Assembly: GCA_020073165.1 (NCBI GenBank)
Contig: JAIQFP010000008.1
Coordinates: forward strand, 186,001 to 250,000
DNA length: 64,000 nt
Reading direction: 5' to 3'
Source of the DNA: Terriglobia bacterium
GTDB lineage: Bacteria; Acidobacteriota; Terriglobia; Terriglobales; Acidobacteriaceae
The position numbers and the translations under genes were made by a program. Below, piece after piece: positions 10 through 42,539 of the stretch; position 1 is the stretch's first letter, and every line of letters begins with the position of its first letter. Below the pieces are notes generated by a model. That model did not search any database and was not told where the DNA came from. It saw only the letters and a list, made by a program, of their open reading frames with translations.

Positions 10-1215
10 CTAGTGAGGCGGAGTTGACACTGTAGCTGGAGCGGAGCCAGCAGTCGGCGGGGCCGCCGCTTTCGTGTCCACCTGGATCGCCGCGGGATTA
101 TTCGTCTTCCCCATATCCACCCAGACCGCACCCAGCGACCCGGTCGAATCCAGCGACAACGTGGTTCGTGTCTCCGCGGCTGGGCCGCTGATGCCCGGGC
201 GGACGATGTCGATGGTCTTTTGCGTGACCCGCGGATTGTCCCCGGGGTTCCCCGGGTTTCGCTCTTCCACCTGCTGCTCCGTCGTTTGTCCCCCGTCAGC
301 ACGGTTGCGGTTCACGGTCGTAATTCGCTGGGTCAAGTGCAGACTGCCGTCCGCGGCTGCTCCCGGAACCGCGGTCGAATAAGTCTCAACTGTCTCGCGT
401 TTCTCTCCCGGAGCGGTTTCTGATTCCTTGCTCACCGTCCGTTCCACCACCGCCAGTCTGCCGTCGGCATCGGGCCGAAGCACGCTTTCCTCTTTGGTGC
501 TTCCCTGCCTGCCCTCTTCCTTCTTGATCGTTCCCTGCCGCACTTCCATCACCTGCAAATTGCCGGCGCCATCGGGCAGCATGGTTGACTTCTTAAACTC
601 CACCGCGTTGTCGCTGCTCTTGGTCTGACGTTCCTCAATCTGCATCGTCGGCTTGAGGCCACCATTGATGTCGGGGCTCAGTACCGTAGTCCTGGTCTCT
701 TGTGTGCTGGCGCTGGTCTGCTTGGTGTCCTGGATCTCGCGCCGCACTAACTGTAATCCTCCGTTCAGGTCGGGACTGGAAACGTTGCGCACCACTTTCT
801 GTCCGCCGCCGGGCAGAGTGCGCTGCTCTTCTTCCGTCACCTGCACCAGCGTCTTGCTGCCGTCGGGATCCCTGCCGTAAGTGCGCTCGATGGTGCGAGT
901 CGTCCTCGCATCTACCTTGACCGATTCCCGCTCTACGTCAAGGTAAGGCACATACTGCCCATCCATGCCGACGCGCTGCAGCGTTTGCGTATCAACCGTG
1001 CGACCGTTCGCTTCCGTGTGCTTTTCACTGCTCCGTGTCGGATTTAAGTTGCCCGACGTGCTCTGCTGCTCGCTGGTAGTGCTCCACGACTGGTTGGTAT
1101 CACTCGTGGACGCTTCAGAGTCGCTCTGGGTTTGCGCCATGGTTGCCCAAGTGAGGAACAGCACCATCGCTGGTGCAATCAGCCAAGCCGGCCTAGATTC
1201 ACGACCAAATTTCAT
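10..1215 (-). CDS. Secreted repetitive protein of unknown function
   Basis: 401 residues. The first 28 residues look like a Sec signal peptide (basic start, hydrophobic stretch, cleavage near ATMA/QTQ). After a Ser/Thr/Gln-rich linker the rest is five or six degenerate units of about 45 residues. Each unit has a Pro-Asp-x-x-Gly-x-Leu turn (for example SPDLNGGLQ, SPDINGGLK, RPDADGRLA) followed by a charged Glu/Thr/Arg-rich stretch, which suggests a repetitive beta-strand fold. There is no catalytic motif and I recognise no family. Its start is separated from the leuS stop by 180 bp containing a dispersed palindrome, so it is probably transcribed alone or with leuS upstream. An extracellular or periplasmic location is inferred from the signal peptide only. 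Confidence 0.75.
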   Translation of the reverse strand: MKFGRESRPAWLIAPAMVLFLTWATMAQTQSDSEASTSDTNQSWSTTSEQQSTSGNLNPTRSSEKHTEANGRTVDTQTLQRVGMDGQYVPYLDVERESVKVDARTTRTIERTYGRDPDGSKTLVQVTEEEQRTLPGGGQKVVRNVSSPDLNGGLQLVRREIQDTKQTSASTQETRTTVLSPDINGGLKPTMQIEERQTKSSDNAVEFKKSTMLPDGAGNLQVMEVRQGTIKKEEGRQGSTKEESVLRPDADGRLAVVERTVSKESETAPGEKRETVETYSTAVPGAAADGSLHLTQRITTVNRNRADGGQTTEQQVEERNPGNPGDNPRVTQKTIDIVRPGISGPAAETRTTLSLDSTGSLGAVWVDMGKTNNPAAIQVDTKAAAPPTAGSAPATVSTPPH

Positions 1216-1260
1216 GCGTTAACCCGGGAACCATCCATCATTTTCCATCTTTTAACGACG

Positions 1261-1298
1261 TCATCCCGAAGCCCCGCGCTTTCTCCAGCGGGGCGAGG
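1261..1298. repeat. Dispersed GC-rich palindrome, copy 1
   Basis: GTCATCCCgAAGCCCCGCGC followed by TTTCTCCaGCGGGGC. The GCCCCGC and GCGGGGC arms can pair. A near-identical copy lies at 21924-21960, also intergenic. It sits between the secreted repeat protein and leuS. Confidence 0.6.
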
Positions 1299-1395
1299 GC
1301 TCCTGCGCGGAGCGACAAATCCGCACCACGCGCAGCGTCCTTCGCCTCTCGGCTCAGGGTGACGCCGGAAAAAGGACACGATCCAGCAGCGAAAC

Positions 1396-3942
1396 TTACC
1401 GTACTACCAGGCTCACCAGCCTGCCGGGCACGATGATCACTTTTACAACCTGCTTGCCCGCGATGGTTGCCTTGACCTTCTCGTCAGCTAGCGCCCGTTC
1501 GCGCACCGATCCGTCATCGGCGTCGGCAGGAACAGTGATCCGGCCGCGCAACTTCCCGTTGACCTGCACCGGGATTTCGATTTCCTCTTCTTTCGCCAGC
1601 TCCGGATCGTACTTCGGCCACGGCGCACGCAACAGGTTTTCCTTCTCGCCCAGCATCTCCCATAGTTCGTTCGCGAGATAAGGCGCAAACGGAGCAAGCA
1701 GCAACACAAACTTGCGCTGCACGTCCCCCACGAAAGGTTTCGGGGCGCAGTTGTCGCCGTGAGCAGCGAATATCTCGTCTGCCGCCACGCACTGGTTCAA
1801 GAACTCCATCAGGGCGGCCACCGAGGTGTTGAAATGCCAGCGCCCGGAGAAGTCATCCGTAATCTTCTTGATGGTCTGATGCAGCTTGCGCAGAATTCCT
1901 CGCGCTTGCGGCGTCAGGTCGTTGGGCGAATAGGGCGCCGTTACCCCTGCGATAGGCCTCTGGGTAACGAACCTGTAAGCGCGTGCCAGGAAACGTGACA
2001 CACCTTCTACACCTGAATCCTGCCAGTCCAGTTCGCTGTCTGGAGACGTGGCGAACAGGGTGTACATACGGGCACTGTCGGCGCCATAGCGTTCCACCAT
2101 CTCATCGGGCGTGACCACGTTGCCCAGGCTCTTAGACATCTTGGCGCCGTCCTTGATGATCATTCCCTGGGTGAAAAGCCGCTCCACCGGCTCATCGTTC
2201 TCGACCATTCCCATGTCGCGCATGAACTTGGTCCAGAAGCGCGAATAAATAAGGTGGAGAATCGCATGCTCCACGCCCCCGATGTACTGATCGATGGGAA
2301 ACCAGTACCCGACCACCTTGCTGTCAAACGGCGCCCGGTCATTGTTTGCGTCGGCATAGCGGTAGAAATACCAGGACGAATCCACAAACGTGTCCATGGT
2401 GTCGGTCTCGCGCCGCGCAGGACCGCCGCATTTCGGGCACTTGGCATTCACGAACTCGGGCACTCGGCCCAAGGGCGATCCGCCGGTCAAAGTAATGTCA
2501 ACGTTCTCCGGTAGGATTACCGGCAAATCCTTTTCCGGCACCGGCACAATCCCATCCTTCTCGCAATAGAGCATCGGGATTGGAGTTCCCCAGTAGCGCT
2601 GGCGCGAGATGCCCCAATCCTTCAAGCGATACGTTACGGTGGCTCTGCCAAAACCCTTCTTTTCGGCATGCTCGGACATCTTCCGGATGGCGTCGTCACA
2701 ATCCAGCCCGTTGAACTCGCCCGAGTTCACCACCACACCTTCATAGGTGGTAAACGGCAGCTGCGGCTCGGCCACAGTTTCTTCCGGGTCGCTGGAGCTG
2801 GGGACGAGGACCACCTTGATCGGCAGCTTGTACTTCCTGGCAAACTCGTAATCGCGTTCGTCATGCGCCGGCACGCTCATGATCGCGCCCGTGCCATAAT
2901 CCATCACGATGTAGTTGGCCACCCAGATGGGAAGCGCCTCGCCGTTATACGGATTCTTGGCATAGCGTCCGGTAAACACGCCGTGCTTCTCGATCTCGCC
3001 GATGTCGCCCGATTCTTTGGCCTTGCGCTGCTCGGCCTTGAGTTGCTCCACCTTGTCGCGCAACTCGGCATTACTCGCGGTGAAGTCCGCCACCAGCGGA
3101 TGTTCCGGCGCCAGTTGCACCGAAGTCGCGCCGTAGATGGTGTCCACGCGCGTGGTAAAGACGGTAATCGTGGAACCGGCCGGGCCGACTGTGCCGCCAA
3201 GATCGAAATCCACCAGCGTGCCTTCGCTGCGCCCGATCCAGTTGCGCTGCATCGTGCGCACCTTGTCCGGCCAGTCTTCGAGCTTGTCGAGATCGCGCAG
3301 CAACTCCTCCGCGTAATTCGTGATGCGCAAGAACCACTGCTCCAGGTCGCGCTGCTCCACCAGCGTATCCTCGTGCCGCCAGCAGTACCCGCCCGCCACC
3401 TGCTCGTTGGCCAGCACCGTGGCGCACTTCGGACACCAGTTCACCTTGCTCTTCTTCCGATAAGCCAGTCCGCGCTCATAGATCTTCAGGAAGAACCACT
3501 GGTTCCACCGGTAATAGTCCGGCAGGCACGTGGTGACCTCGCGCGACCAGTCATAGGCAAAGCCCAGACGCTTCATCTGCGCCTTCATGTTGGCGATGTT
3601 GCGCAGCGTCCATTCCCGTGGAGGGGTGTTGTTGGCGATGGCCGCATTCTCCGCCGGCAACCCAAACGAATCCCATCCCATGGGATGCAGCACGTTGTAC
3701 CCATTCATCCACATATAACGGGCGAGAGCATCGCCAATCGAGTAATTGCGCACGTGCCCCATGTGCAGCGCGCCCGAGGGATAAGGCAGCATCTCCAGCA
3801 CGTAATACTTCGGCTTGGTCGAGGCAGGCTCCGCCGCGTACAGAGACGCGTCCGCCTGCCAGCGCTCGAACCACTTGCTCTCGACCCGCTGCGGGTCATA
3901 GCGCTCGTCGCGGACAGTTGCGGTTTTGTCTTCCTGCGGCAT
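1396..3942 (-). CDS. leuS: Leucine--tRNA ligase
   Basis: Cytoplasmic class Ia aminoacyl-tRNA synthetase that charges tRNA-Leu. 848 residues, the usual bacterial length. The HIGH motif appears as HMGH at residues 60-63 within [22 protein letters not shown] is at 601-605, followed by the typical LGNVV. The central insertion that starts near [14 protein letters not shown] is the CP1 editing domain. A C-terminal VNGKLRG element matches the family. The ATG at 3942 is chosen because [17 protein letters not shown] leads directly into the conserved YDPxxVExKWxxRW start. It runs in the same direction as the endonuclease IV gene, whose stop lies 55 bp upstream. Identification is secure. Confidence 0.98.
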
Positions 3943-24001: not shown

Positions 24002-24601
24002 TTGAGCACCGGTGCCGGAGCACTGGCGAATACGTACACGTACGAGTCGTTCGGCAAACTGATTGCTTCCTCCGGCACGCTCACGAATCCATTCCTGTAC
24101 ACGGGGCGCGAGTTCGATCAGGAAATGGGGTTCTACTTCTACAGGGCTCGCTACTTCGACCAGAACATCAGCAGATTCCTCAGCGAAGATCCGATTGGGT
24201 TGAACGGAGGGGTCAACTTCTACCGATACGTGCTAAATCAACCGATTAACAACACCGATCCTTTCGGTTTGAAGTGCATCACGAAGGTCATGCTGGTGAC
24301 TGCATATTGCGCGACGGGCAACCCGACGGCAAGCGGACGAATGCCCGGATGGGGCACTGTGGCGGTGGCGAACACTAGACCTAAGCCCTATGACTTTGGA
24401 TGTTCGGTAAGTGTCTCAGGTCCGCTCGCCGATCCGGTCTTCGATCCGCGCCCGCTCGATCCATTCAACACGCCGAGCTACAACGGAACGGTTCAGGACA
24501 CAGGAGCAGGCTGGGATCTAAGGCACCACCATGTAGAACCTAATGACTGGATTGACATCTTCTTCCCCGGCCCCAAATGCCACAGGAACGCCAATGCGTG
24601 A
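24002..24601 (+). CDS. RHS repeat-associated core fragment with 3D/double-psi-barrel-like C-terminal tip
   Basis: The 3' part of an RHS/YD-repeat gene. From the first possible start (TTG 24002) it is 199 residues, but recognisable RHS sequence already begins about 45 bp earlier in the same frame, so the gene is probably 5'-truncated at the inverted repeat. The RHS core is clear: YTYESFGKLIASSGT, FLYTGREFDQEMGFYFYRARYFD, RFLSEDPIG, NFYRYVLNQPINNTDPFG. After it the variable tip (about 110 residues) resembles the 3D/RlpA-like double-psi barrel: VTAYCATGNPTASGR, GTVAVAN, VQDTGAGWD, DWIDIFFPG. Two of the three family aspartates are in place; the first, usually VAVDP, is VAVAN. Such folds include peptidoglycan lytic enzymes. 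Likely a polymorphic-toxin remnant. Confidence 0.75.
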   Translation: MSTGAGALANTYTYESFGKLIASSGTLTNPFLYTGREFDQEMGFYFYRARYFDQNISRFLSEDPIGLNGGVNFYRYVLNQPINNTDPFGLKCITKVMLVTAYCATGNPTASGRMPGWGTVAVANTRPKPYDFGCSVSVSGPLADPVFDPRPLDPFNTPSYNGTVQDTGAGWDLRHHHVEPNDWIDIFFPGPKCHRNANA

Positions 24602-27645: not shown

Positions 27646-28305
27646 ATGACGCTTTCATCGATGGTGGTCTCGCGCGATTGGCAGGAAGTCAGCGTTTTAG
27701 AGTGCATCCTCGGCGGGTTACACATTGCGGTGGACGTGGAAACGGAAGTGACACGCGCCCAGGCGAAGTTGGCCAAATCCAAAATCGATGCCCTGATTGT
27801 GGATTGCGATCTCAGCGGTACGGCGAGTTTCCTGCGCAGCGTGCAGAACTCGGTGCCGCTGGTCATCGTCAGCGGATCGAACGGACGCAACCGCCTCGAA
27901 GCCACCGGCGCCGCCTTCGTCTTCCAGAAACCAATCTCCGTCGAGCAGGCGGTGCACACCCTTTCCGCCGCACGCAACGTGATCATGGATGGCCGGCTGC
28001 GCTATCACCGCGAGACCCTGGATCTGCCGGTCTCGCTCAACTTCGGCTCCAGGAGACGCTGCCAGGCCCACCTCATGAACCTCAGCCAGGGTGGAGTGGG
28101 CGTCCGCATTCACGAGACCCTGCCGCTGGCCTCGCCGCTGCAAGTCAGCTTCGCCCTACCGGGAACGAAACGCTCCTTAAAGGTGCAAGGCCAGGTGGCA
28201 TGGATCGATCGGAAAGGCAACGCCGGAATCCGTTTCCTGGAAGTTGCGCCCACCGCCAAGCGCCACCTCCAGCTCTGGCTGGAGCGCCAGTACTTCCACC
28301 ACTAG
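27646..28305 (+). CDS. Degenerate receiver-like domain fused to PilZ
   Basis: 219 residues. Residues 1-112 have the pattern of a response-regulator receiver: the phospho-acceptor position is Asp53 (ALIVDCDLSG), Ser at VIVSGS and Lys95 in FQKPIS are present, but the acidic pair near the N-terminus is reduced to Arg-Asp (VVSRDWQE), so phosphorylation is uncertain. The PilZ domain spans 117-215 with Arg-x3-Arg in RLRYHRETL and NLSQGG (145-150) for DxSxxG, with Asn in place of Asp. It may join two signals or be a pseudo-receiver. Cytoplasmic. The stop codon lies in a heptanucleotide array. Confidence 0.82.
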   Translation: MTLSSMVVSRDWQEVSVLECILGGLHIAVDVETEVTRAQAKLAKSKIDALIVDCDLSGTASFLRSVQNSVPLVIVSGSNGRNRLEATGAAFVFQKPISVEQAVHTLSAARNVIMDGRLRYHRETLDLPVSLNFGSRRRCQAHLMNLSQGGVGVRIHETLPLASPLQVSFALPGTKRSLKVQGQVAWIDRKGNAGIRFLEVAPTAKRHLQLWLERQYFHH

Positions 28306-28332: not shown

Positions 28333-29127
28333 TCACCGAAAGCGCGGCCGCTCTTCCCTCTCCCTCTCCCCCTCATGCCCGACCGCAAGCCCCGCCAGAT
28401 AAGCCCCCGGAGTCGCCCCAATCCAGGACCCGAACAACCAGTGGTACATCGCGGCAAAGACCACCGCCACCGTACACCCCAGACCCAACCCGATCGGCCA
28501 CGTGGGGAACACGTGGGTCATCGCCAACGACACCACGGAAAACAGCAGCACCGCGCTGCTCAGAATCAGCCCATCCAGCAAGCGCGCGAGGCTGCGCGCC
28601 GAAATCGGAATCGGACACCAGAACAGCCGCAAGCGCTCCCGCGGCACTGCCCGCTCCGCCGGCGCCAGAGCCAGCGCCGGACGCCGCGGCCCCGAGAACA
28701 CCAGCTGGGTCGCAGACTCACCCGGGGCATGGTGAATGAACACCGAATCCGTCCCGTACGCCGCGTGGGCCCGCGCCAGAAGCTGGGTGAACACCCAGTC
28801 CTTGAGCGAACGCTGCGCCCGCGGTGGAAGCTCCAGAAACTCGACCCCGGCCTGTCCCAACTCGTCCGCCCACACCACCCGGCCGCTGGTCTCCACCCGG
28901 GTGCGCGGACTCGCCAGCTCAAAGCGCAGATGCACCTGCTGGTCCACGCGCAGCGGCGCCGCCGCCTGCACCGCCAGCCCCGCCTCGCTGATCTCCCGGA
29001 TGACGCCCCCGTTGGCCTGGTCCAGATTGACGTACGTCAAGGCATGCACCCGGTAGCGGTAGTGGCGGCGCTTGGGACGGATCACCCCGGGAACATGCCC
29101 TGCAGGGGCAGCCAGCGAAGAGTCCAT
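28333..29127 (-). CDS. PilZ domain fused to an RDD-like membrane domain
   Basis: 264 residues from ATG 29127 (MDSSLAAPAG); a longer in-frame reading to 29235 adds an unlikely leader. PilZ at about 19-115 with RRHYRYR (RxxxR) and EISEAG (46-51) for the DxSxxG position. Then a linker and two membrane helices (about 181-203 LLDGLILSSAVLLFSVVS and 212-231), followed by YHWLFGSWIGATPGAYLAGL, which matches the GATxGK end of RDD domains with Ala in place of Lys. A cytoplasmic c-di-GMP sensor coupled to a membrane protein is the likely arrangement. Function unknown. Confidence 0.75.
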   Translation of the reverse strand: MDSSLAAPAGHVPGVIRPKRRHYRYRVHALTYVNLDQANGGVIREISEAGLAVQAAAPLRVDQQVHLRFELASPRTRVETSGRVVWADELGQAGVEFLELPPRAQRSLKDWVFTQLLARAHAAYGTDSVFIHHAPGESATQLVFSGPRRPALALAPAERAVPRERLRLFWCPIPISARSLARLLDGLILSSAVLLFSVVSLAMTHVFPTWPIGLGLGCTVAVVFAAMYHWLFGSWIGATPGAYLAGLAVGHEGEREREERPRFR

Positions 29128-29185
29128 GCCCAGATGGTAGCTCTGGGTTGGAAATGGCCTCAGTGACCGAATTGGTTCAGGGCCG

Positions 29186-29491
29186 TCAGGCAGGACGCTT
29201 CTCGGAGGGCGGAACTTCACGCGGCACCTTGCCACCGTGCGCGCGGTCCCACGCGATCAGGCGGTTCAGGTCGTAGCTGTAGGGTCCGTAAGCGCGAAAT
29301 TCATCGACGTCGAACAGCCGTTTGATGCCGCAGCCCATGCAGACCTGGTAGGAATGCTCCTGGGCACGAACCGGCCAACTCATCTTGGAATGCCAGCAGC
29401 CGCGAAACGCCATCACCGCAGCGCCGGCCAAACCCGTGGCCATCAGGCCCAGAGGCCACAGCCAGCTCGACTTCTTCTTCACTTCACTCAC
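29186..29491 (-). CDS. Small membrane protein with CxxC motif
   Basis: About 101 residues from GTG 29491; the start is uncertain since the reading frame is open to 29608 and the first ATG of the core (MATGLAGAAV) is at 29437. It has one hydrophobic helix (LWPLGLMATGLAGAAVMAF) and then CWHSKMSWPVRAQEH, VCMGCGIKRLFD, AYGPYSYDLNRLIAWDRAHGG. The CMGCG pair may bind metal together with another cysteine. I recognise no characterised family. Upstream of the PilZ-RDD gene on the same strand, 58 bp apart. Confidence 0.6.
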   Translation of the reverse strand: MSEVKKKSSWLWPLGLMATGLAGAAVMAFRGCWHSKMSWPVRAQEHSYQVCMGCGIKRLFDVDEFRAYGPYSYDLNRLIAWDRAHGGKVPREVPPSEKRPA

Positions 29492-29749
29492 CTGACCACA
29501 GCCTGTAACTACTTCTAACAATTCAGGATATGCGCAAGGGCGGGCAAGTGCAATGGCACGAATTTGCCAGATCGGGAGATGGCCCGAAATTGGCTTACGA
29601 AAGAGCACCTTGGCAGTCCCAACCTTCGTGCACCGGGAGTTATTGCGAATGGGGGCAAACCCCTGTAACTTACTGCTGTTGCCTCAGATTGCAGGCAGGA
29701 AGCGTCAGCGGCGTACAAACTCGGCCTGGGAGGAATTTCCACCGGTTTC

Positions 29750-31933
29750 ATGAGCGCCAATCCAACCAACGCGGGCCTTGGATTCGCGACGCACATGGGC
29801 GCAACCGGCACCGCTCCCGCGAAACCTGAAACCGCTCCGTCTTCCCCGGGTCACGAAGCCCTGCAAGCCCTGCTGGCTTTTTCTTCCCTTCACGAACAGA
29901 TTCGACAACGCCGCGCGCGTGAACTGCGCAACGGCGAGCGCCTCAGTACCGAAGACGCCTGGGAGCTTGAACAGTTTGTTCTGGACGAAGTGCTGCAACT
30001 GGTGGCGGAACGAGCACTGGCGATCACCGGCGCTGACGGCGTGGCCATCGCCCTGGCGGAAGGAGAGGCGATCATCTGCCGGGGTTCCGCAGGAGAGATT
30101 GCCCCCGATCCGGGCGTGCGTCTGGATCCGAACTCGGGATTTTCCGGAGCCTGTTTCCGTACCGGCCGGATCATCCGCTGCGACGACGCGGAGAACGATC
30201 CGCGGGTCAACGTCCAGGCCGCCCACCGTTTAGGTGCGCGCTCCATGGTGGCCGTGCCGCTGGCCGGACAGCACAGCGTGATCGGATTGCTGGAGGCGTT
30301 CTCCTACGACGCTTTCGGTTTCAACGACAGCGATGTTCGCAGCCTGAATCTTCTCGCCGAACTGATCCTGGCAGCCATGCGTCCGGAAGAAGAAGACCGC
30401 ATGGCCGAAATCGCACAGCGTGTGGCCACTCAGGCGGAAGCGCCGCTTGAGACCGCCGAGCCCGCAGTTCCCAACGGCCAAGCGGAACCATCTCGGGAAA
30501 TTTCTAAGGAGGTCAGGGAGCCAGAGCCGCTGGAGCCCGCCCCGGTTCCTGCAGTTTTCTCGGAGTACCGGGAGGCCGAGAGTTCCCGGCCCGGCCTGCT
30601 CGTGGTGCTGGCAGTCGTACTGGTCGCCATCGCGCTGGGCGGGGGACTGTGGTGGAAGATGCGGCAGAAGCCTGGCGTAGTGAGTTCCCGCCCGCAGCCG
30701 GTTGCACCTGCTCCTGTGCCGTCGCCGTTGCCGGCCCTGCCTGCCGCTAGCCAAAGCCACACCGCACCTGCCATTCAGGAAAAGCTTGCGTTACTTCCGC
30801 AAGTTACCGGAATTCGCCACTGGTCCTCAGCCGACTCCAGTACCGTAGTGGTTGATCTTCAGGACCAGGTCCAGTACGAAGCCCACCGCCTCAGCGACCC
30901 CGAGCGCATTTACTTCGACCTGCAGGACACTGCGCTCGCTCCCGGACTCTTTGGGAAAACGATTGAAATTCGTGATGCGCTTTTGGTGCGGGTTCGCATC
31001 GCCCAGCCTATGCCGGGCGTAACCCGGGTGGTGCTGGAGACCAAGGGCGGCTCGGATTTCTCGGTCAGCCTGGAAAGGAATCCTTATCGGCTCGTGGTTG
31101 AGGTACGCGCCCCCGGAGCAGCCGCGCGGCCTCGGGCGAGAGTCGATCTTTTCGCTCCCGTGGCTCCACCGCCAGCCCGCCCCCTCACATCCTCGGCTAA
31201 GTCTGCAGATGACACCCGGCTGCGCGCCCATGTGCCGAAGTTCCGCATTGTGCTCGATGCCGGACATGGCGGGTGGGATTTGGGCACCGTTGGCCGTCAG
31301 GGCTTGCTGGAAAAAGACGTTGTGCTGGATATTGTGCAGCGCCTGGGGACCCTGATCGAAAGCCGCTCAGGTGCGGAGGTGATTTACACCCGCTCCGATG
31401 ATACCTATGTCGCCTTGGAGCGGCGTGCCGAGATCGCCAACCAAACACAGTCGGACTTCTTCGTCTCGATCCATGCCAATTACAGCGACGACGCTTCCGC
31501 ACGAGGCGTAGAAACCTATTACACCAATACATTCTCGTCGGTGAACGCCCACAGCCACGAAACGGATATCACCGGCAATCCTCTGCAAACCGTCAGCTTC
31601 GCCAACGTGGATATCCGGGAAAAGGTGCAGGAGTCCCGCAAGTTTGCCGCCAGCGTGCAGCACTCACTTTTTGCCACGTTGGCCGCAAAGAACCCCGGCA
31701 TTCGCAACCGCGGCGTGAAAGAAGCTTCCTACGTCGTGCTGACCGGCACTTCCATGCCCGCGATCCTGGCGGAGGTCTCCTTCGTCAGCAGCCCCACCGA
31801 CGAAACCAACCTGCAGAACTCAAAGTATCGCCAGCAGATTGCCGACGCGCTTTACAAAGGTATTGCTCGCTTCGCCGCCGATTCCCACAAGGTGAAGCTG
31901 GCCAGCGCCTCCGCCAAACCAAGCGGGCAATAG
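29750..31933 (+). CDS. GAF sensor - transmembrane - AMIN - N-acetylmuramoyl-L-alanine amidase fusion
   Basis: 727 residues. Domains in order: Pro/Ala leader 1-74; GAF about 75-215 (ITGADGVAIALAEG, FSGACFRTGRIIRCDDAEND, GARSMVAVPLAGQ, VIGLLEAFS); linker; one membrane helix 281-302; Pro-rich linker; AMIN domain about 351-455 (VVVDLQDQVQYEAHRLS, RIYFDLQDT, TRVVLETKGG); Amidase_3 about 498-712. Zinc and catalytic residues are present: His506 (DAGHGG), Glu521 (LEKDVV), His575 (SIHANYS), Glu675 (ILAEVSF). It cuts the MurNAc-L-Ala bond and AMIN may target it to the septum or cell wall. Topology predicts GAF in the cytoplasm and amidase in the periplasm. I know of no characterised protein with this layout. 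ATG 29750 follows GGGAGGAATT. Confidence 0.93.
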   Translation: MSANPTNAGLGFATHMGATGTAPAKPETAPSSPGHEALQALLAFSSLHEQIRQRRARELRNGERLSTEDAWELEQFVLDEVLQLVAERALAITGADGVAIALAEGEAIICRGSAGEIAPDPGVRLDPNSGFSGACFRTGRIIRCDDAENDPRVNVQAAHRLGARSMVAVPLAGQHSVIGLLEAFSYDAFGFNDSDVRSLNLLAELILAAMRPEEEDRMAEIAQRVATQAEAPLETAEPAVPNGQAEPSREISKEVREPEPLEPAPVPAVFSEYREAESSRPGLLVVLAVVLVAIALGGGLWWKMRQKPGVVSSRPQPVAPAPVPSPLPALPAASQSHTAPAIQEKLALLPQVTGIRHWSSADSSTVVVDLQDQVQYEAHRLSDPERIYFDLQDTALAPGLFGKTIEIRDALLVRVRIAQPMPGVTRVVLETKGGSDFSVSLERNPYRLVVEVRAPGAAARPRARVDLFAPVAPPPARPLTSSAKSADDTRLRAHVPKFRIVLDAGHGGWDLGTVGRQGLLEKDVVLDIVQRLGTLIESRSGAEVIYTRSDDTYVALERRAEIANQTQSDFFVSIHANYSDDASARGVETYYTNTFSSVNAHSHETDITGNPLQTVSFANVDIREKVQESRKFAASVQHSLFATLAAKNPGIRNRGVKEASYVVLTGTSMPAILAEVSFVSSPTDETNLQNSKYRQQIADALYKGIARFAADSHKVKLASASAKPSGQ

Positions 31934-32356
31934 AACTCGGCTCCGGGGCCAAAACCGTTGTGAACCGTTATAAGCGGTTTCACTGGTGGCCGGGGCTGTT
32001 CTCTCCCCCCTAACGGCGAGCCCGCACAGGCTCAGCACCCGGAATCCTTGTTGGTGTAATCGCGATGTTACACCAACTAGCAATCGTCCAGTCGCACTTG
32101 CACTAGGGGCAACTCCGTCGTCTCCCATAGCTGCACAGTTTCGGACAAATCAAACCCACCGCGCTGGCGCGCCTCCTCACCCCACTGAGTGATTGATCTC
32201 ACTTACAGACCACCCAAGAACCTGTAAACGGGAGCTGTTGTATCGGCCCACCGGCCCCTGCCTAGCTTCCATGCTCCCCTGCCGCGAGTTTTGGGAAGCG
32301 AACTCGCTGCAGCGACCACCGCAACTGTTCGCTAGCCATTCACAAGGAGACACTGT
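31934..32356. promoter_or_regulatory. 423-bp regulatory region upstream of the SGNH-like gene
   Basis: No gene. It holds TTGGTGTAA-TCGCGATG-TTACACCAA (32051-32076), a 9-bp inverted repeat around TCGCGA, with the 14-mer ATCGCGATGTTACA at 32059-32072, and a CRP/FNR-like palindrome GTGATTGATCTCAC at 32189-32202, respectively 285 and 155 bp before the start codon. The same two motifs lie upstream of the HAF-repeat gene at similar distances. Confidence 0.45.
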
Positions 32357-33877
32357 ATGAAGCATCTGCTTCTGTTCATCGTCCTTGCATTTCCTTTCGC
32401 AGTGATCACCGTTTCCCACGCCGCAGCCGACGAGGCGTGCTCCAACACGCCCAGTGTGCCTGCTGACTTCAATTTTGCAAACAGTGCGTGCAAAAACCTC
32501 AATGTGGACACCTTTCACCCCAAGCCACTCATAGATGGAACGGGCCTTCTCTACGGCAACACAGGTGAAGTAATGAACCTGTACGGCATCTACGGCAACG
32601 ATGAGCACACATCCAGTTATCAGGAGGCGCAACAGCACTACACCGAGGGGACGAATCGGGCGCAGGCGATCAGGCCGTTGTGCCAAAACGGTAACCCTCC
32701 AGATACTGGTGGGTGCCCAGACGGTAAGCCCGCCAGGATCGTTTTCCTCGTCCTCGGCCTTTCCAACTGCGACATCGAAGTCTGTGGAGGCCACTCGAAT
32801 GCCTGGGACCCGCAGCGCAAGAACCACCAACCGCCCCTGGACCAGCTCGCGGGGCAGCCCTGCGCCACGAAGTGTCCGAACTTGAACAACCCGGAAGGAG
32901 GACTAGCCTGGAACAAAGCCGTCAGAGACGGCGTCTGGGACGGAGTAAGCCAGCTCTCGTTCTTGGAGCAGATCTATCCGGACAACGATCCCCTTCACTG
33001 GCTGGTCGGTCCGGACATGGTGGTGTTTGACGGGGCGTTCGGCGGGCAAACTCTCGATGCCTGGGACCCAACATCCCTGGGATACTACTGGAACAACCCC
33101 TGTCCTTGGGACGCATTCACCGATAACAACCCGGAATGCAACTATTATCGGGTTGCGGATGATCTGCGCAGGAACGACTTCGCAGAAGCTCAAGTGCAGG
33201 CCATCTTCTTGAAGTCTTCGACGAGTTTTCCGACTTGCGACCTGCAACATGCGTTCTGTCCCAGCAGCACCCTGCCGGATGCTTACCAGTCCGAGCAGTA
33301 CCTGGGCAACATCTTGCGGTATCTAAAGTGCTGCAAGCTGAATGGGCAGCACATCTCCACCGGCGTTAAGCGCTACCCTAACCTGCAGCAGGTGTTCATC
33401 ACGACTCGCATTTACGGGGGATACGCGAACCAGGCAGCGCAGGAAGACCAGAATCCACACGCCTGCCTCAGCCCCGAGCCCTTTGCCTTTGAAGAGGGCT
33501 TTGCGGTGCAGCGTGCGATTGTGGCGCAGATCAAGCAAGGTGGAGGGGAACCACCTATCGAGTACGCCGGAGACGTGAGCTACGATGTGGCTCCGTGGTT
33601 CGACTGGGGCCCGTACCTCTGGGCGGACGGGGAGACTACCAATGGAGCGGGAATAAAGTGGTGTAACGCACAGGGCGATTTCGCCTGTGGCGAAGAGCGC
33701 GATGTTCGCTATGGGGATATTGATCCCCAATACAAGACAACCTACTGGGGTGACTTCACCCACCCCACCGCCAGCGCTGCAAAGAAAGTAGCGGATCAGT
33801 TAGTGAAATTCATCGGAAAAGGGTCTGGCGGCCTCCAAGCGGGTTCACCGTTTGTGACGCCTTGGATTGAAAAGTAG
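32357..33877 (+). CDS. Secreted SGNH/GDSL-like protein of unknown substrate
   Basis: 506 residues. ATG 32357 is preceded by AAGGAGAC. Signal peptide about 1-24 (HLLLFIVLAFPFAVITVSHA/AAD). The mature protein carries many cysteines, suggesting disulfides. Two motifs fit the SGNH hydrolase pattern: FLVLGLSNCD in the N-terminal third (block I, with Ser-Asn) and WGDFTHPTASAAKKVADQLV at the C-terminus (block V Asp-x-x-His as DFTH). VVFDGAFGGQTLDAWD in the middle may supply the Gly. The catalytic role is inferred from these motifs only. A long hairpin follows, separating it from the convergent HAF-repeat gene. Confidence 0.65.
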   Translation: MKHLLLFIVLAFPFAVITVSHAAADEACSNTPSVPADFNFANSACKNLNVDTFHPKPLIDGTGLLYGNTGEVMNLYGIYGNDEHTSSYQEAQQHYTEGTNRAQAIRPLCQNGNPPDTGGCPDGKPARIVFLVLGLSNCDIEVCGGHSNAWDPQRKNHQPPLDQLAGQPCATKCPNLNNPEGGLAWNKAVRDGVWDGVSQLSFLEQIYPDNDPLHWLVGPDMVVFDGAFGGQTLDAWDPTSLGYYWNNPCPWDAFTDNNPECNYYRVADDLRRNDFAEAQVQAIFLKSSTSFPTCDLQHAFCPSSTLPDAYQSEQYLGNILRYLKCCKLNGQHISTGVKRYPNLQQVFITTRIYGGYANQAAQEDQNPHACLSPEPFAFEEGFAVQRAIVAQIKQGGGEPPIEYAGDVSYDVAPWFDWGPYLWADGETTNGAGIKWCNAQGDFACGEERDVRYGDIDPQYKTTYWGDFTHPTASAAKKVADQLVKFIGKGSGGLQAGSPFVTPWIEK

Positions 33878-33891
33878 GACTATCGTGCAAG

Positions 33892-33931
33892 GACTCGCGC
33901 TGTGCGAGACAAACGCCGCTCAGCGCGAGTC
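33892..33931. terminator. Hairpin between convergent genes
   Basis: GACTCGCGCTG, 18-nt loop, CAGCGCGAGTC, a perfect 11-bp stem midway between the SGNH-like and HAF-repeat genes. No strong T-tract on either side. Confidence 0.5.
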
Positions 33932-33942
33932 AGACTGGAAGA

Positions 33943-34830
33943 TCAGGGGAGTTCTAACTCCGTGATTGGACTCGTTACAAAGGCATGCCAGGTCGTGAAA
34001 TCGTCTGTGTAACCGCCGACGATCTGTCCAGCGTTGTTAATGCCACCAGCCGCTGTGAAGAGCGCCCCGGGGAAGCCAAACGAATAATATTTGCCATTCT
34101 TCAGAACGAAACCGTACGAGAAGGAACCAACGTTGTACCAGCCCACAACCACACCATGGTCATTGATGCCTAACGGCCTGGTCTCGAACGCGCCCGGAAA
34201 GGCAATGGTCTTGAACGCTCCGTTGGCGTACAGCCAGCCATTCTCATCTGCGTGTCCAACCACCTTCCCGAAGTTATTGATTCCCATTCCGAACACGTAG
34301 ACGAAGCTCCCCGGAGGGTAGAGGCGTTTGAACTTCTGCCCTTGCTTTTCAAATCCCTGAGTTGTATAGATCGTGCCCGCACCACCCACCACTTGTCCGG
34401 CGTTGTTGATGCCGTTGGCAAAGGTTGTCTGGCGGCCGAGCTTTACTGGGGTGAACGCCGTCCCATCATAAGTAAAGCTGTACACCGGGCCTTGACCAGC
34501 GTACCCGACGATGAGTCCCCCATCGTTAATTCCGAGCGGAACCGTGAAGTCTGGGACAGCAGGGTAGTCGAAGTAGGCAAAAGTTCCGTTGGTGAGGAGA
34601 AAACCGTGGGAGTCATTGCTTGTGCTTTGACCGTAATTCCCGACGATCTGCCCCGCCGAATTGATGCCATTAGCGATAGTAAAGACAGCCCCCGGCACGT
34701 CTATCGTGGTAAAGGTCATGTGCAGTTCACGGACAGCAGGCTTCGGCTGCGCCTGGGCCATGCAGGCATGACTCAGCAAACCACACAGAAGCACAAGCGG
34801 GAGCAACGCGGAACTGCGAAGGAACGTCAT
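33943..34830 (-). CDS. Secreted HAF-repeat protein
   Basis: 295 residues from ATG 34830, with GGAGGCGG upstream; a longer in-frame reading to 34947 is rejected. Signal peptide about 1-27 (LLPLVLLCGLLSHACMAQA/QPK). At least six HAF-type repeats of about 40 residues: NGINSAGQIVGNYG, LGINDGGLIVGYAG, NGINNAGQVVGGAG, MGINNFGKVVGHAD, LGINDHGVVVGWYN, GGINNAGQIVGGYT. Each is flanked by short strands such as GFLLTNGTFAYFDYP. These form a beta-propeller-like extracellular structure. Function unknown; common in Acidobacteriota. Confidence 0.85.
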   Translation of the reverse strand: MTFLRSSALLPLVLLCGLLSHACMAQAQPKPAVRELHMTFTTIDVPGAVFTIANGINSAGQIVGNYGQSTSNDSHGFLLTNGTFAYFDYPAVPDFTVPLGINDGGLIVGYAGQGPVYSFTYDGTAFTPVKLGRQTTFANGINNAGQVVGGAGTIYTTQGFEKQGQKFKRLYPPGSFVYVFGMGINNFGKVVGHADENGWLYANGAFKTIAFPGAFETRPLGINDHGVVVGWYNVGSFSYGFVLKNGKYYSFGFPGALFTAAGGINNAGQIVGGYTDDFTTWHAFVTSPITELELP

Positions 34831-35168
34831 AGAAACCGCCTCCAGACAGGGGCAGAGGGAGCGATCTGAACTTCGGCCATTATCCTTGTCGCCGAACCAG
34901 CCGTCAATTTGCAAGGGCCTGGGTCGGGCGTTTAGAGCCGCTGCCATGTTCGCGTATTGTGTAGCAGCAGGCAGTGACCTGGATCACAATCCTCGGGAAT
35001 CACACCTAATGGCGGCCTCATCTGGAGGAACCCGTGAGTAACTGGCGTAAACAGATTACACTCATTGACGTTCCCGAAGGGGTGTTCTTGCACCAAAAGC
35101 AGGTCAATGAGTGCTATCGCGATGTTACAACAATGACCGCCGGACGCGGCCTGCTGGAGTGTTGATTA
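34831..35168. promoter_or_regulatory. Regulatory region upstream of the HAF-repeat gene
   Basis: 338 bp. It contains the CRP/FNR-like palindrome GTGACCTGGATCAC at 34974-34987, the 14-mer ATCGCGATGTTACA at 35116-35129, and an inverted repeat CACTCATTGAC / GTCAATGAGTG (about 35059-35113). The first two are 144 and 286 bp before the HAF gene start, a layout mirrored upstream of the SGNH-like gene. A copy of the GTAACTGGCGTAAACA element begins near 35038. Confidence 0.45.
35038..35064. repeat. GTAACTGGCGTAAACA element, copy 1
   Basis: GTAACTGGCGTAAACA, 3-nt spacer, TTACACTCA. A second copy with a longer spacer lies near 35694-35726; the two flank the hypothetical gene 35169-35675. Confidence 0.5.
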
Positions 35169-35675
35169 CTAAAGCAGTTGCTTAGTTCGTGGAAATTCCT
35201 GCTCTGAGAAGGCCGTGTTCAGCTGCTGCAAGCGAGGTCGCAATAAAGTCGCTGCGCCAGCCAGATCATTCACGATGTCTCGTTCCGAGAAACGCCGTTG
35301 CTCTAGCGCGGCGATCAGGGGACCAAGTTCGTAGCTGTCTCTCGGAGCGTGACGCGGTGCGACACACACTGTTGTATCTCCCCGACCCCTTGTGATTATT
35401 ACCAGCAGGTTCTCCCAAGGAATTGTGAGGGAAGCGTAGTCGAACGGGTGAATCGTAGTGGGACCTGAAAAGTCCACCTGCGACTGTGAGGTGAGGAAAT
35501 AAAGGTTCGCCTGCACGTTGTCCCACAGAGCGCGGTTCGCTTTACGTTGCAGCCATGGATCGAGCCACCACGCAAAAGCGATGTTGTAAACCAATTTGAC
35601 GATGAACCCAAGGCCCAAGAAGAGCGGCGTTAGAAACTTCAACACGCGACGCTTGGCACTTCGATCCACACTCAA
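35169..35675 (-). CDS. Hypothetical membrane protein
   Basis: 168 residues from TTG 35675; GTG 35669 is an alternative. There is no clear ribosome-binding site for either. One membrane segment at about residues 16-37 (LTPLFLGLGFIVKLVYNIAFAWWL), followed by a soluble domain ending in helical QRRFSERDIVNDLAGAATLLRPRLQQLNTAF. The middle has YASLTIPWENLLVIITRGRGDTTVCVAP, a possible beta-sheet. No recognised family. Flanked by two copies of a repeated element (35038 and 35694). Confidence 0.6.
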   Translation of the reverse strand: MSVDRSAKRRVLKFLTPLFLGLGFIVKLVYNIAFAWWLDPWLQRKANRALWDNVQANLYFLTSQSQVDFSGPTTIHPFDYASLTIPWENLLVIITRGRGDTTVCVAPRHAPRDSYELGPLIAALEQRRFSERDIVNDLAGAATLLRPRLQQLNTAFSEQEFPRTKQLL

Positions 35676-35693
35676 ATATTACTGCCATGCGCC

Positions 35694-35726
35694 GTAGCTG
35701 GCGTAAACAAGGCGTTTACACTCAGA
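35694..35726. repeat. GTAACTGGCGTAAACA element, copy 2
   Basis: GTAGCTGGCGTAAACA then AGGCGTTTACACTCA; contains the internal palindrome GTAAAC-AAGGC-GTTTAC. An inverted partial copy (GCCAGTTACG) is near 35750. Confidence 0.5.
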
Positions 35727-39867: not shown

Positions 39868-41499
39868 TTATCGGATTCCGGGTGAAGGTTTGCCGGTGAC
39901 CTGGTGCTGCTTCAGCCACTCGTTGGCTTGCTGCTGCGCGGCAACGACCTGGGCGCGGCTCATGTGGGACACGAGGAGGGGAATCCGGTACTTGCTGGGT
40001 TCGTCTCCTCCGGCCTGCGCGAGGATCGACCAAAAATAAGCCTTGCCAAAATCCTGTGGGACACCGCGTCCGATCCCGTAGTAGGCGCCCAGCATGGCCT
40101 GGGCGTTGACGTGGCCCTGCTCGGCAGCACGGGCGAACCAGTTGACGGCTTCGGTGTAATCCTGCTTGACCTCCTCGCCGGTGGCATATCGAGCGCCGAT
40201 CGCAAATTGCGCCGCAGGGTCGCCCTGCATGGCCAATTTGCGCAGCCCCTCGAAATTGCTGACGTCCGCCACTGTGATCGGCGGCTTGGGAGCTGCCTGC
40301 GGCGCCGATCTGGCCGGGGCGCTGGGTAGTAGCTGCCCAGTCGTGTGCCTCACCAAGGGAGCAACCAGCCAGACCACAACCAGGAACAAAGTGAGGGCGA
40401 CCATGATGAGCAGGACCTTGCGAAACAGAGAGGAGGCAGGCCGATCGGAAGCGACCACCTCGCCGATGCCGGGAGCCTCCGGGGAAGCCTGGTCATCCAC
40501 CGGGCGCGGCAGCGCTTCACGTAACCGCTCCTGTGCCGCGCGGACGCGGGCCGCGCGATTCACCGCGGCAAGAATGGTCTCCGCCAGGCGTTGCAGGATC
40601 GTATCGTCATTGCGGCTAAAGGCATCGGCTTGTGGGGCAAATACCTCCAACAGGCCAATTACGACATCCCCAAGGCGAATCGGCACTGCGATCATCGAGC
40701 GGATGCCGAGCCCCCGGCAAGTCTCCCTATCCACACGCGGGTCGCTCTCCGCGTCCTCGCAACGAAGCAGCATTCCGCTGCGCACGCATTCCCCCGAGAA
40801 CCCAGAGCCCGTCTGCAGCCGTGCGCCCAGACCAGGAGCATCGCCCGCAGTCGCCCGGCAGATCATTTCACCACCCTCTGCCAGTGCGATCGCCGCGCCC
40901 GTCGCATGCGTGAAGCTTTGGGCTCGTTCCGCCACCAGTTGCAGGACGGTACTGAGGTTCGCACCGAGTGATTCCACTTCTCGCTTGACTGCCGCCAACC
41001 CGGCCAGAATCGATGTGTAGTCCGGAGGAACGGGAGGCTCAACTCCCTCCTTGACCACGGTGGGGCCCGCCTGTGGCTCTTCCCATTCCGTCTGCGCCGC
41101 AGCCTGATTCATGCAGGCGGCCATGGCATTCAGAAATAGCCATTCGTTAAGTTGGCGAAGGGGGTCTCCCCGCATCTGGGCAAGACTGACTCCGGCACGC
41201 CCCAGCCGATCAGCCCAAATCACCCGACCTGTGGTATGGATGTTGGTGTTGCTTTCGGAAAGATCCAGGCACAAGTTCAGCTCGCGCCCGGCTTGCAATG
41301 GCAAGGCCGTCTGCAGGCACATGCCTTCTTCGCTGATGTCCAGAATCTCGCTGAGGTCCGGCGTCACGCTGCCGGAACTGCCATCCAGGCGGGCGTAAGC
41401 GGGAGTATGGACCTTCATCCGCACGCGCCGGCGGCGCTCGCGCAGAGTGGGTGTCAACCCCTGGATGTCGCCGGCCGGCTTGGTTCCGAGGGGCTCCAT
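39868..41499 (-). CDS. PilZ - GAF - transmembrane - Sel1-repeat protein
   Basis: 543 residues. PilZ at about 21-125 (RRRRVR, and DISEEG at 54-59). GAF about 180-315 (AAIALAEGGEMICRATAG, FSGECVRSGMLLRCEDAESDPRV, RSMIAVPIRLGDVVIGLLEVFA), very similar to the GAF domain of the amidase fusion. One membrane helix at about 361-381 (VLLIMVALTLFLVVVWLVA), then two Sel1-like TPR repeats at about 425-495 (GDPAAQFAIGARYATGEEVKQDY, GHVNAQAMLGAYYGIGRGV) that should be periplasmic. So c-di-GMP and a small-ligand sensor are joined to a protein-binding repeat. Output unknown. 73 bp separate it from the next gene, a further GAF protein on the same strand. Confidence 0.9.
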   Translation of the reverse strand: MEPLGTKPAGDIQGLTPTLRERRRRVRMKVHTPAYARLDGSSGSVTPDLSEILDISEEGMCLQTALPLQAGRELNLCLDLSESNTNIHTTGRVIWADRLGRAGVSLAQMRGDPLRQLNEWLFLNAMAACMNQAAAQTEWEEPQAGPTVVKEGVEPPVPPDYTSILAGLAAVKREVESLGANLSTVLQLVAERAQSFTHATGAAIALAEGGEMICRATAGDAPGLGARLQTGSGFSGECVRSGMLLRCEDAESDPRVDRETCRGLGIRSMIAVPIRLGDVVIGLLEVFAPQADAFSRNDDTILQRLAETILAAVNRAARVRAAQERLREALPRPVDDQASPEAPGIGEVVASDRPASSLFRKVLLIMVALTLFLVVVWLVAPLVRHTTGQLLPSAPARSAPQAAPKPPITVADVSNFEGLRKLAMQGDPAAQFAIGARYATGEEVKQDYTEAVNWFARAAEQGHVNAQAMLGAYYGIGRGVPQDFGKAYFWSILAQAGGDEPSKYRIPLLVSHMSRAQVVAAQQQANEWLKQHQVTGKPSPGIR

Positions 41500-41572: not shown

Positions 41573-42406
41573 CTAGGCCGACTGCCGGTGCCCCACCGAC
41601 CGTATATTCGAGAGGCGGGAGATGGCCGCGACCATCATGCTGGACAGGAGCTGCATCGTCGCCACGTCCCGGTTGTCGAAGGCGTAAGGGGCCGCGGAAA
41701 GCACCTCGAATACCCCCAGGGTCCTGCGGAAGTGACGCAGGGGAGCTACCAGAATGGAACGGACCCCCAGGCGCCGGCAACTGGCCAGGTCGACGCGCGG
41801 GTTCCTTTCCGCGTCGTGACAGAGCACAACCTCTCCGGTACGCACGCATTCGGCAGAGATTCCGGAGTCCGTCTGCAGCCGCACCCCCAGGTCGGGCGCG
41901 GTACGGCCGGTGCGGGCGCGGCAGACGATCTCGTCTCCGTGGCGCAAAGCAATCGCTGAACCCGTGGCCCCGGTCAGGGCTTGCGCCCGCTCCGCAATCA
42001 CGCTGATCGCGGGCTCCAGGTCGAGTTCACCCGGATGAATCTCCCGCCCGGAACCCGAAACATGCGCCGGAGCATGCGAAGAGGACGCAGCCCGGGCATG
42101 GTGCCGGCTCGGTGCTAACGCCGCGAAGGAAGCAGGTACCCGGTGGTCACCGGCCTGTGAAGCAGCTGCCGGCACGGTCCGCAGCAGTTCCCGCACCAGC
42201 CGATCCAGTTCGGCGTCCTGAATCACATGCGCCGTCTGCTGGCCCCGCAACGATCCGCCCAGCACGCGCGACAAACTGAGCACCGCCTGGCTGCCGCAAG
42301 CCAGGCAATTCGGCATATTGTTCTCGCTGATCAGCTCGCACTCAACGCAAAACACCGCGGTCTGCAAGGATAGGAAGTTGATGTCCTGCAGTTTCATCCA
42401 ACCCAT
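41573..42406 (-). CDS. Zinc-ribbon - GAF protein
   Basis: 277 residues from ATG 42406 (GGAGGAAA upstream, spacing somewhat long); ATG 42397 or TTG 42442 are alternatives. Near the start (counting from TTG 42442) lie CVEC (32-35) and CLAC (46-49), a small zinc-ribbon. The middle is low-complexity Ser/Ala/His. GAF at about 145-280: TGSAIALRHGDEIVCRARTG, DSGISAECVRTGEVVLCHDAERNPRVD, RSILVAPLRHFRRTLGVFEV. It is the third member of the GAF family in the window, here without a membrane helix. Cytoplasmic. Same strand as the PilZ-GAF-Sel1 gene. Confidence 0.8.
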   Translation of the reverse strand: MGWMKLQDINFLSLQTAVFCVECELISENNMPNCLACGSQAVLSLSRVLGGSLRGQQTAHVIQDAELDRLVRELLRTVPAAASQAGDHRVPASFAALAPSRHHARAASSSHAPAHVSGSGREIHPGELDLEPAISVIAERAQALTGATGSAIALRHGDEIVCRARTGRTAPDLGVRLQTDSGISAECVRTGEVVLCHDAERNPRVDLASCRRLGVRSILVAPLRHFRRTLGVFEVLSAAPYAFDNRDVATMQLLSSMMVAAISRLSNIRSVGHRQSA

Positions 42407-42539
42407 CGAACCAGTTTCCTCCGGCCATTCGCGAATTAGCAAGGTAAACGGCGTGCGCGCAGGTAAGAAGTGACAGGACTGGTTCAGGCTGTGGATAAAG
42501 TCGCCAGCACCGGAGAACGTAGAAATCCCGCGGTTGCGA

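Follow-up and report, generated by a model that had tools for sequence, protein, structure and literature searches.

Background

Division amidases must stay off until they are needed, and the known answer to this problem is a periplasmic catch that is released by a LytM activator. In Staphylococcus aureus, the Amidase_3 enzyme LytH is reportedly tied to the membrane, with a separate membrane protein, ActH, as its activator and no GAF domain. For AmiA, AmiB and AmiC of E. coli, PMC10268282 describes structures in which a blocking helix keeps the enzyme inactive through a Glu bound to zinc (Glu167 in AmiA), and an adjoining interaction helix with exposed hydrophobic residues docks into the LytM groove.

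The initial annotation of a stretch of 64,000 nucleotides from a Terriglobia bacterium (the whole stretch that was analysed, hereafter the window) proposed that one gene encodes a cytoplasmic GAF sensor and an extracytoplasmic cell-wall amidase on the two sides of a single membrane helix. We found that GAF-TM-AMIN-Amidase_3 is a real and conserved transmembrane fusion, undescribed within the open-access literature searched: in line with the annotation's remark that no such protein was known to be characterised, no description of it was found there, most subscription papers lying outside the scope of the search.

Domain architecture and predicted structure

The features of the protein, P0001, are given below with their window coordinates; counts out of 74 refer to P0001 and its 73 complete homologues (see the next section).

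29750..31933, + strand: GAF-TM-AMIN-Amidase_3 protein (P0001), 727 aa (ORF with ATG start; Pfam; AlphaFold2 model)
29846..29929, + strand: N-terminal helix, aa 33–60, ALQALLAFSSLHEQ region (model, with low to middling confidence; conservation)
29981..30379, + strand: GAF domain, aa 78–210 (Pfam GAF_2, 5.3e-16; nearest solved folds fRMsr 4mmn and other GAFs, tied)
30152..30154, + strand: Cys135 of the GAF domain (Cys in 66/74)
30179..30181, + strand: Cys144 of the GAF domain, motif CDDxxxDxRV (Cys in 74/74)
30590..30655, + strand: single membrane helix, aa 281–302 (hydropathy; helix 281–305 in the model)
30812..31093, + strand: AMIN domain, aa 355–448 (Pfam, 3.6e-10; model)
31247..31867, + strand: Amidase_3 domain, aa 500–706, with His506, Glu521, His575 and Glu675 (Pfam, 2.6e-50; residues in 74/74)
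31523..31609, + strand: degenerate regulatory insert, aa about 592–620, at the site of the blocking and interaction helices of canonical AMIN-amidases (latch and docking columns; 597–610 with pLDDT < 50)

Pfam, hydropathy and the structural model agree on the annotated chain of 727 aa, with a GAF domain, one membrane helix (281–302), AMIN and Amidase_3, and the four zinc and catalytic residues are as annotated and identical in all aligned proteins. GAF_2, AMIN and Amidase_3 all exceed their curated Pfam cut-offs (for GAF_2, 59.5 bits vs 28.6), and NCBIfam returned distant AmiC/CwlD/AmiA-type models only, each under its own cut-off. Structure prediction, suggested in the annotation, was carried out with AlphaFold2 on 35 sequences; it yielded confident GAF, AMIN and amidase domains and the helix 281–305, an extra helix ahead of the GAF domain (33–60) and disordered linkers, with an overall pLDDT of 69.9 and a pTM of 0.37, i.e. 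the relative placement of the domains is not predicted. The Foldseek search with the whole model placed AmiC (4bin) at the top, followed by other Amidase_3 enzymes, with GAF folds lower, and the PDB matches of the amidase domain comprise 5emi, 4rn7, AmiA, AmiC and AmiB. The PDB matches of P0001 also include 7tj4 (LytH/ActH). P0001 is probably a peptidoglycan amidase of the AmiA/B/C type, anchored in the inner membrane.

Distribution, conservation and origin

The source genome (4.6 Mb, 35 contigs) contains three Amidase_3 genes, the other two being L001 (TPR_6-AMIN-Amidase_3 with a signal-like N-terminus) and the shorter L003. The question raised in the annotation, whether the fusion is a conserved acidobacterial type, can be answered affirmatively: the top 80 among 453 confirmed relatives are, by record title, all metagenome-assembled Acidobacteriota (Terriglobia, Acidobacteriaceae, Acidobacteriales, Ca. 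Sulfotelmatobacter and similar), no isolates being found among these 80, and GAF_2, AMIN and Amidase_3 were all matched by Pfam in 35 of the 35 proteins scanned. A complete ORF is present in 73 of the 80, which together with P0001 make up the conservation set (n=74; 71 proteins remain at 90% identity and 3 contain unknown residues); seven loci that are truncated at the edge of a contig, or whose ORF is broken or short, were left out (L085, L101, L112, L143, L155, L156, L160).

Among the genomes of 61 relatives examined, an intact GAF-amidase was identified by alignment in 10 of the 37 from the same family, two further family genomes (G015, G025) have GAF-amidase pieces that stop at contig ends, and the matches listed include no GAF-amidase from the other 24. 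In the whole family, 103 of 398 genomes, representing 26 of 79 genera, have a match at E <= 1e-76, a count of matches by similarity score, whatever their GAF content, which misses divergent members, e.g. G027 (2.3e-75). The recurrence across many genera argues that the architecture is not due to chance. In the wider samples, matches were obtained from 16 of the 299 genomes of the class and from 3 of the 396 of the phylum; six of the 16 belong to the same family as the source genome, and in eight examined of the ten remaining matches (four of them run through Pfam) no GAF was found, three having an AAA domain and five resembling ordinary exported or TPR-type enzymes. Some GAF-amidase matches (G690, G668, G749, G590, G719, G681, G653 and others) have one in-frame stop, due either to pseudogenization or to an assembly error.

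Across the conservation set, the commonest residue at a position has a mean frequency of 0.74 in GAF, 0.78 in AMIN, 0.77 in the amidase, 0.58 in the helix and 0.37–0.48 in the linkers; thus, GAF is conserved nearly as well as the amidase. Cys144, Asp145, Asp146, Asp150 and Arg152 of GAF are invariant (74/74), and Leu41, Leu42 and Phe44 of the N-terminal helix are conserved at 99–100%. Cys135 is found in 66/74 and Cys158 in 50/74 (Ala in P0001), with both accompanying Cys144 in 45/74; the divergent GAF-linked member L171 has Ser at position 144. Between two congeners the dN/dS ratio of the helix-plus-GAF part equals 0.08, measured for this part alone since their amidase halves are identical.

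In a tree of 65 amidase domains the GAF type is separated from the canonical type with support 99/99, and the divergent GAF-linked L064 and L080, which have long branches, group with the canonical type. The fusion may thus have arisen once or more than once.

Membrane topology

A 19-residue stretch with a mean hydropathy of at least 1.6 is present at the expected helix site in 73 of the 74 proteins (L122 reaches 1.16), and no such stretch was detected in the first 60 residues of any of them (0/74, by hydropathy only). The annotated topology, with GAF in the cytoplasm and AMIN and Amidase_3 outside, is likely from these and the following sequence features: it gains support from the lack of an N-terminal signal-like segment, from the distribution of cysteines and from a TonB_C paralogue, and is opposed by the charges that flank the helix.

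Each protein has on average 4.86 cysteines before the helix but 0.07 after it, and 69/74 have none there. Two proteins with the same GAF type are encoded elsewhere in the window:

39868..41499, − strand: PilZ-GAF-TM-Sel1 protein (Pfam PilZ, GAF_2, Sel1)
41573..42442, − strand: GAF protein without a membrane helix (Pfam GAF_2; no hydrophobic segment found)

The numbers of cysteines before and after the helix are 7 and 0 in PilZ-GAF-TM-Sel1, and 4 and 0 in a GAF-TM-TonB_C relative. Because plain amidases are cysteine-poor as well (15 of 19 amidases with a normal signal have none past residue 40), the scarcity of cysteine on the C-terminal side may be partly inherited. In the paralogue the position of the amidase is taken by TonB_C, which in known proteins is periplasmic; this fits GAF inside and amidase outside.

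The positive-inside rule predicts an excess of Lys and Arg on the cytoplasmic side of a membrane helix, contrary to the charges of the GAF-linked amidases, in which Lys and Arg within 15 residues of the helix average 1.84 before it and 2.39 after it (more on the C side in 41 proteins, more on the N side in 16, equal in 17). The flanking charges do not favor GAF inside, because these residues are commoner on the C side. Could the protein instead be inserted the other way round, or its helix be an export signal that is cleaved off, leaving no transmembrane link between sensor and enzyme? The charge excess would agree with that, but a folded domain of more than 200 residues would then have to cross the membrane without an N-terminal signal, the cysteines are distributed the other way, the cytoplasm offers an amidase no peptidoglycan, and no signal-peptidase-like AxA was seen by eye after the helix in P0001; we regard such an arrangement as very improbable.

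Degeneration of the regulatory insert

The catalytic domains of the 74 GAF-linked amidases were aligned with those of 19 canonical AMIN-amidases (L001, L016–L033), 17 from the same family and two from elsewhere in the class. The latch column contains Glu in 19/19 canonical vs 16/74 GAF-linked proteins (full REN in 8/74 of the latter), while all four hydrophobic residues of the docking helix are present in 19/19 vs 0/74, with at least three kept in 4/74. Proline accounts for 1 of 342 insert residues in the canonical proteins vs 89 of 1126 in the GAF-linked ones. In the P0001 model there is no ordered blocking helix in this low-confidence insert, and a nearby Glu (SHETD) is aligned beside the latch column, not within it; the divergent L063 and L171 have a shortened insert or none. 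The motif '[AV][AS].EN[AS]' (0/74 vs 19/19) overstates the loss of the latch in comparison with the aligned column.

Amidases linked to an AAA domain, which belong to a different family (f7) in this class, provide a second reference (coordinates within each locus):

315-2936, − strand, L163: AAA_22-helix-AMIN-Amidase_3 (Pfam, hydropathy)
880-3318, + strand, L164: AAA_22-helix-AMIN-Amidase_3 (Pfam, hydropathy)
287-2740, + strand, L165: AAA_22-helix-AMIN-Amidase_3 (Pfam, hydropathy)

Their N-terminal part is presumably ExeA-like, and the membrane helix of L163 is weaker (1.45). All three retain the REN latch and the docking helix, hence the loss goes with the GAF type and not with any membrane-linked form.

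The annotation had set P0001 against amidases under the control of EnvC/NlpD-type proteins, and this contrast turned out stronger than claimed, because the regulatory insert is degenerate. The alignment suggests that the GAF-linked amidase has probably left the EnvC/NlpD-type control while gaining the membrane anchor and the cytoplasmic GAF domain, and that autoinhibition may persist in some members, given the residual Glu and REN. Could the amidase be autoinhibited and LytM-activated as before, with GAF only a second layer of control? The retained latch residues, the Glu beside the column in P0001 and the presence of two M23 proteins in the genome are compatible with this possibility, which is nonetheless made improbable by the absence of the docking pattern from all 74 proteins, the abundance of proline, the unordered insert in the model and its disappearance from L063 and L171.

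Genomic neighborhood

The gene order around the GAF-amidase is often kept, as counted by strand and side at loci with enough flanking sequence (60 upstream, 47 downstream). The upstream neighbors in the window are:

27646..28305, + strand: PilZ-domain protein (Pfam PilZ; recurs at 36/60 loci)
28333..29235, − strand: PilZ-RDD membrane protein (Pfam; recurs at 37/60 loci)
29186..29608, − strand: small CxxC protein containing a hydrophobic segment, divergent neighbor (recurs at 30/60 loci; conserved core)

The small protein has no Pfam match, exhibits conserved RGCWH and CxxCG motifs, and probably starts further in than its ORF. Downstream, an S9 peptidase recurs at 30/47 loci, a putative lipoprotein (37991) at 29/47, the PilZ-GAF-TM-Sel1 protein at 29/47, and a radical-SAM-like protein (38647, labeled by eye) at 32/47. 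The search around the amidase gene gave no promoter-like site, and terminator-like sites there occur at chance level. The motif [DN]xSxxG, the c-di-GMP motif of PilZ, is present in 42/45, 27/57 and 22/34 PilZ hits, and together with RxxxR in 6/45, 23/57 and 19/34, in sets that hold some mis-assigned hits. The PilZ neighbors do not prove a link to c-di-GMP, as this motif is not uniformly kept.

Comparison with the congener L081 revealed DNA 99.2–100% identical in 250-base steps over window positions 31,000–35,500; most steps that flank the high-identity tract (about 30,900–35,700) are 77–95% identical, and the stretch 29,250–29,749 is at 97.6–99.2%. One edge of the tract falls within the amidase gene, around the linker/AMIN part, and the genes 32357, 33943 and 35169, which the tract contains, are hardly found at the other loci. 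The tract results either from a recent recombination event or from a chimera in the metagenome assembly. Elsewhere in the window, an ORF at 24002-24601 (+ strand) resembles, by eye, the end of an Rhs/YD-repeat core.

The GAF domain: relatives, possible ligand and role

In the same genome, the GAF domains of this family (the two in the window, L041:1252-2703, L038 and L047) are joined to TonB_C, to Sel1 (with PilZ), to what is, by eye, a possible C-terminal tail anchor, or to a late membrane helix. The Cys144-type motif occurs also in PilZ-GAF-TM-Sel1, in the GAF-alone protein, in GAF-TM-TonB_C and in L038, with Ser in L047. L074:2665-4227 (− strand) is a family member with the GAF-TM-AMIN architecture and no amidase domain; L076, considered as another GAF-AMIN protein without amidase, is actually GAF-Sel1 according to Pfam.

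The sequence profile search identified 3e0y, 3oov and 4mcw as nearest to the GAF domain of P0001, and the structural comparison of the GAF model (pLDDT 82.6) with VIA-align placed at the top the fRMsr structures 4mmn (Z 18.0; 2.4 A over 140 residues) and 4mn7 (17.8), the PtsP GAFs and 2qyb, all tied, with GAF folds scoring at Z 15–18. According to PMC6211008, the Thermoplasma free methionine-R-sulfoxide reductase (fRMsr) has two essential cysteines, Cys60 and Cys84, 24 residues apart. The spacing of Cys135 and Cys158 is 23 residues; the likely counterpart of the nucleophilic Cys84, deduced from range offsets and not from a residue alignment, is position 158. Could the GAF domain be an enzyme of this kind that performs repair or redox chemistry at the membrane to which it is anchored? 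The fRMsr structures among the closest folds (4mmn, 3mmh, 3ksf) and the cysteine spacing point that way; however, these folds are within 1 Z of non-enzymatic GAFs such as PtsP, the E-values favor other GAFs (3e0y 2.3e-10 vs 3mmh 0.0011), and P0001 itself lacks Cys158, so we give this possibility very little credence. A thiol-based or small-ligand switch in the GAF domain is suggested by the conserved cysteines as a lead, no more.

GAF could instead be a scaffold or localization module that senses no ligand and pairs or places the amidase, e.g. via the PilZ or GAF neighbors. The flanking helices in the model are of a kind typical of pairing, PilZ and GAF neighbors recur, no ligand motif was identified in the GAF domain, and the linkers to the helix are long, variable and disordered, all of which would suit such a module; on the other hand, the pocket-side CDDxxxDxRV motif is invariant in 74/74, beyond what scaffolding alone would seem to need. 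We consider this explanation somewhat unlikely.

The explanation that we prefer, by a modest preponderance of belief, is that GAF controls the tethered amidase directly from within the same chain, the catch having degenerated; here the domains, their conservation and the loss of the catch are computed results. The internal helix would be an uncleaved signal-anchor, which would keep GAF in the cytoplasm and let AMIN and Amidase_3 face the peptidoglycan, while the usual catch, a blocking helix prised off by a LytM activator of the EnvC/NlpD type, has degenerated. The GAF domains would be paired through the flanking helices, perhaps as a cysteine-dependent or small-ligand switch, and a change in the dimer arrangement would alter how the tethered amidase reaches peptidoglycan. 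In favor of this explanation are the conservation of GAF with its invariant residues, the low dN/dS ratio, the intact catalytic residues, the loss of the latch Glu and docking helix, the cysteine distribution, the linkage of the same GAF type to TonB_C or Sel1 and the recurring PilZ neighbors; the flanking charges, the residual Glu and REN, and Ser at position 144 of L171 count against it. The variability of the membrane helix and of the linkers, together with the predicted disorder of the long linkers, argues against a rigid lever. A bolder version, which we find rather doubtful, is a one-protein transmembrane switch: in Acidobacteria, a cysteine-marked cytoplasmic GAF, a module that is plugged by way of a single helix into amidase, TonB_C or Sel1 as envelope effectors, might directly gate the amidase and replace the EnvC/NlpD step, and the AAA-ATPase-amidase of the sister family might be a second, independent solution.

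Acidobacteria are a dominant and little-cultured lineage of soil, and the enzyme described here is a widespread natural one, in which the catch is degenerate and a putative cytoplasmic sensor resides in the same chain. If signaling through one helix does gate wall cleavage, it would offer a compact system for studying how the state of the cytoplasm reaches the wall. The GAF-linked, ATPase-linked and plain amidases form a natural comparison, through which the role of the blocking helix can be tested.

Comparison with known systems

P0001 shares with AmiA, AmiB and AmiC of E. coli the Amidase_3 fold and the zinc residues, and with AmiC also the AMIN domain. Unlike them, the P0001 type has an internal-helix anchor, GAF in front and no N-terminal signal-like segment, and has mostly or wholly lost the latch Glu and the LytM-docking helix. 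The canonical AMIN-amidases (L001, L016–L033) have the same AMIN-Amidase_3 part with its catalytic motifs; they differ in the possession of TPR_6 in place of GAF-TM (in the two scanned, L001 and L170) and of an insert that is intact in 19/19. L163–L165 resemble P0001 in combining a domain of cytoplasmic type with AMIN-Amidase_3 in one chain, but an ATPase replaces GAF and both elements of the catch are retained. In purpose, P0001 would resemble the FtsEX-EnvC-amidase pathway, in which a cytoplasmic event governs a periplasmic amidase (PMC10268282); in contrast to that pathway, P0001 is one polypeptide, with no ABC transporter and no LytM step evident.
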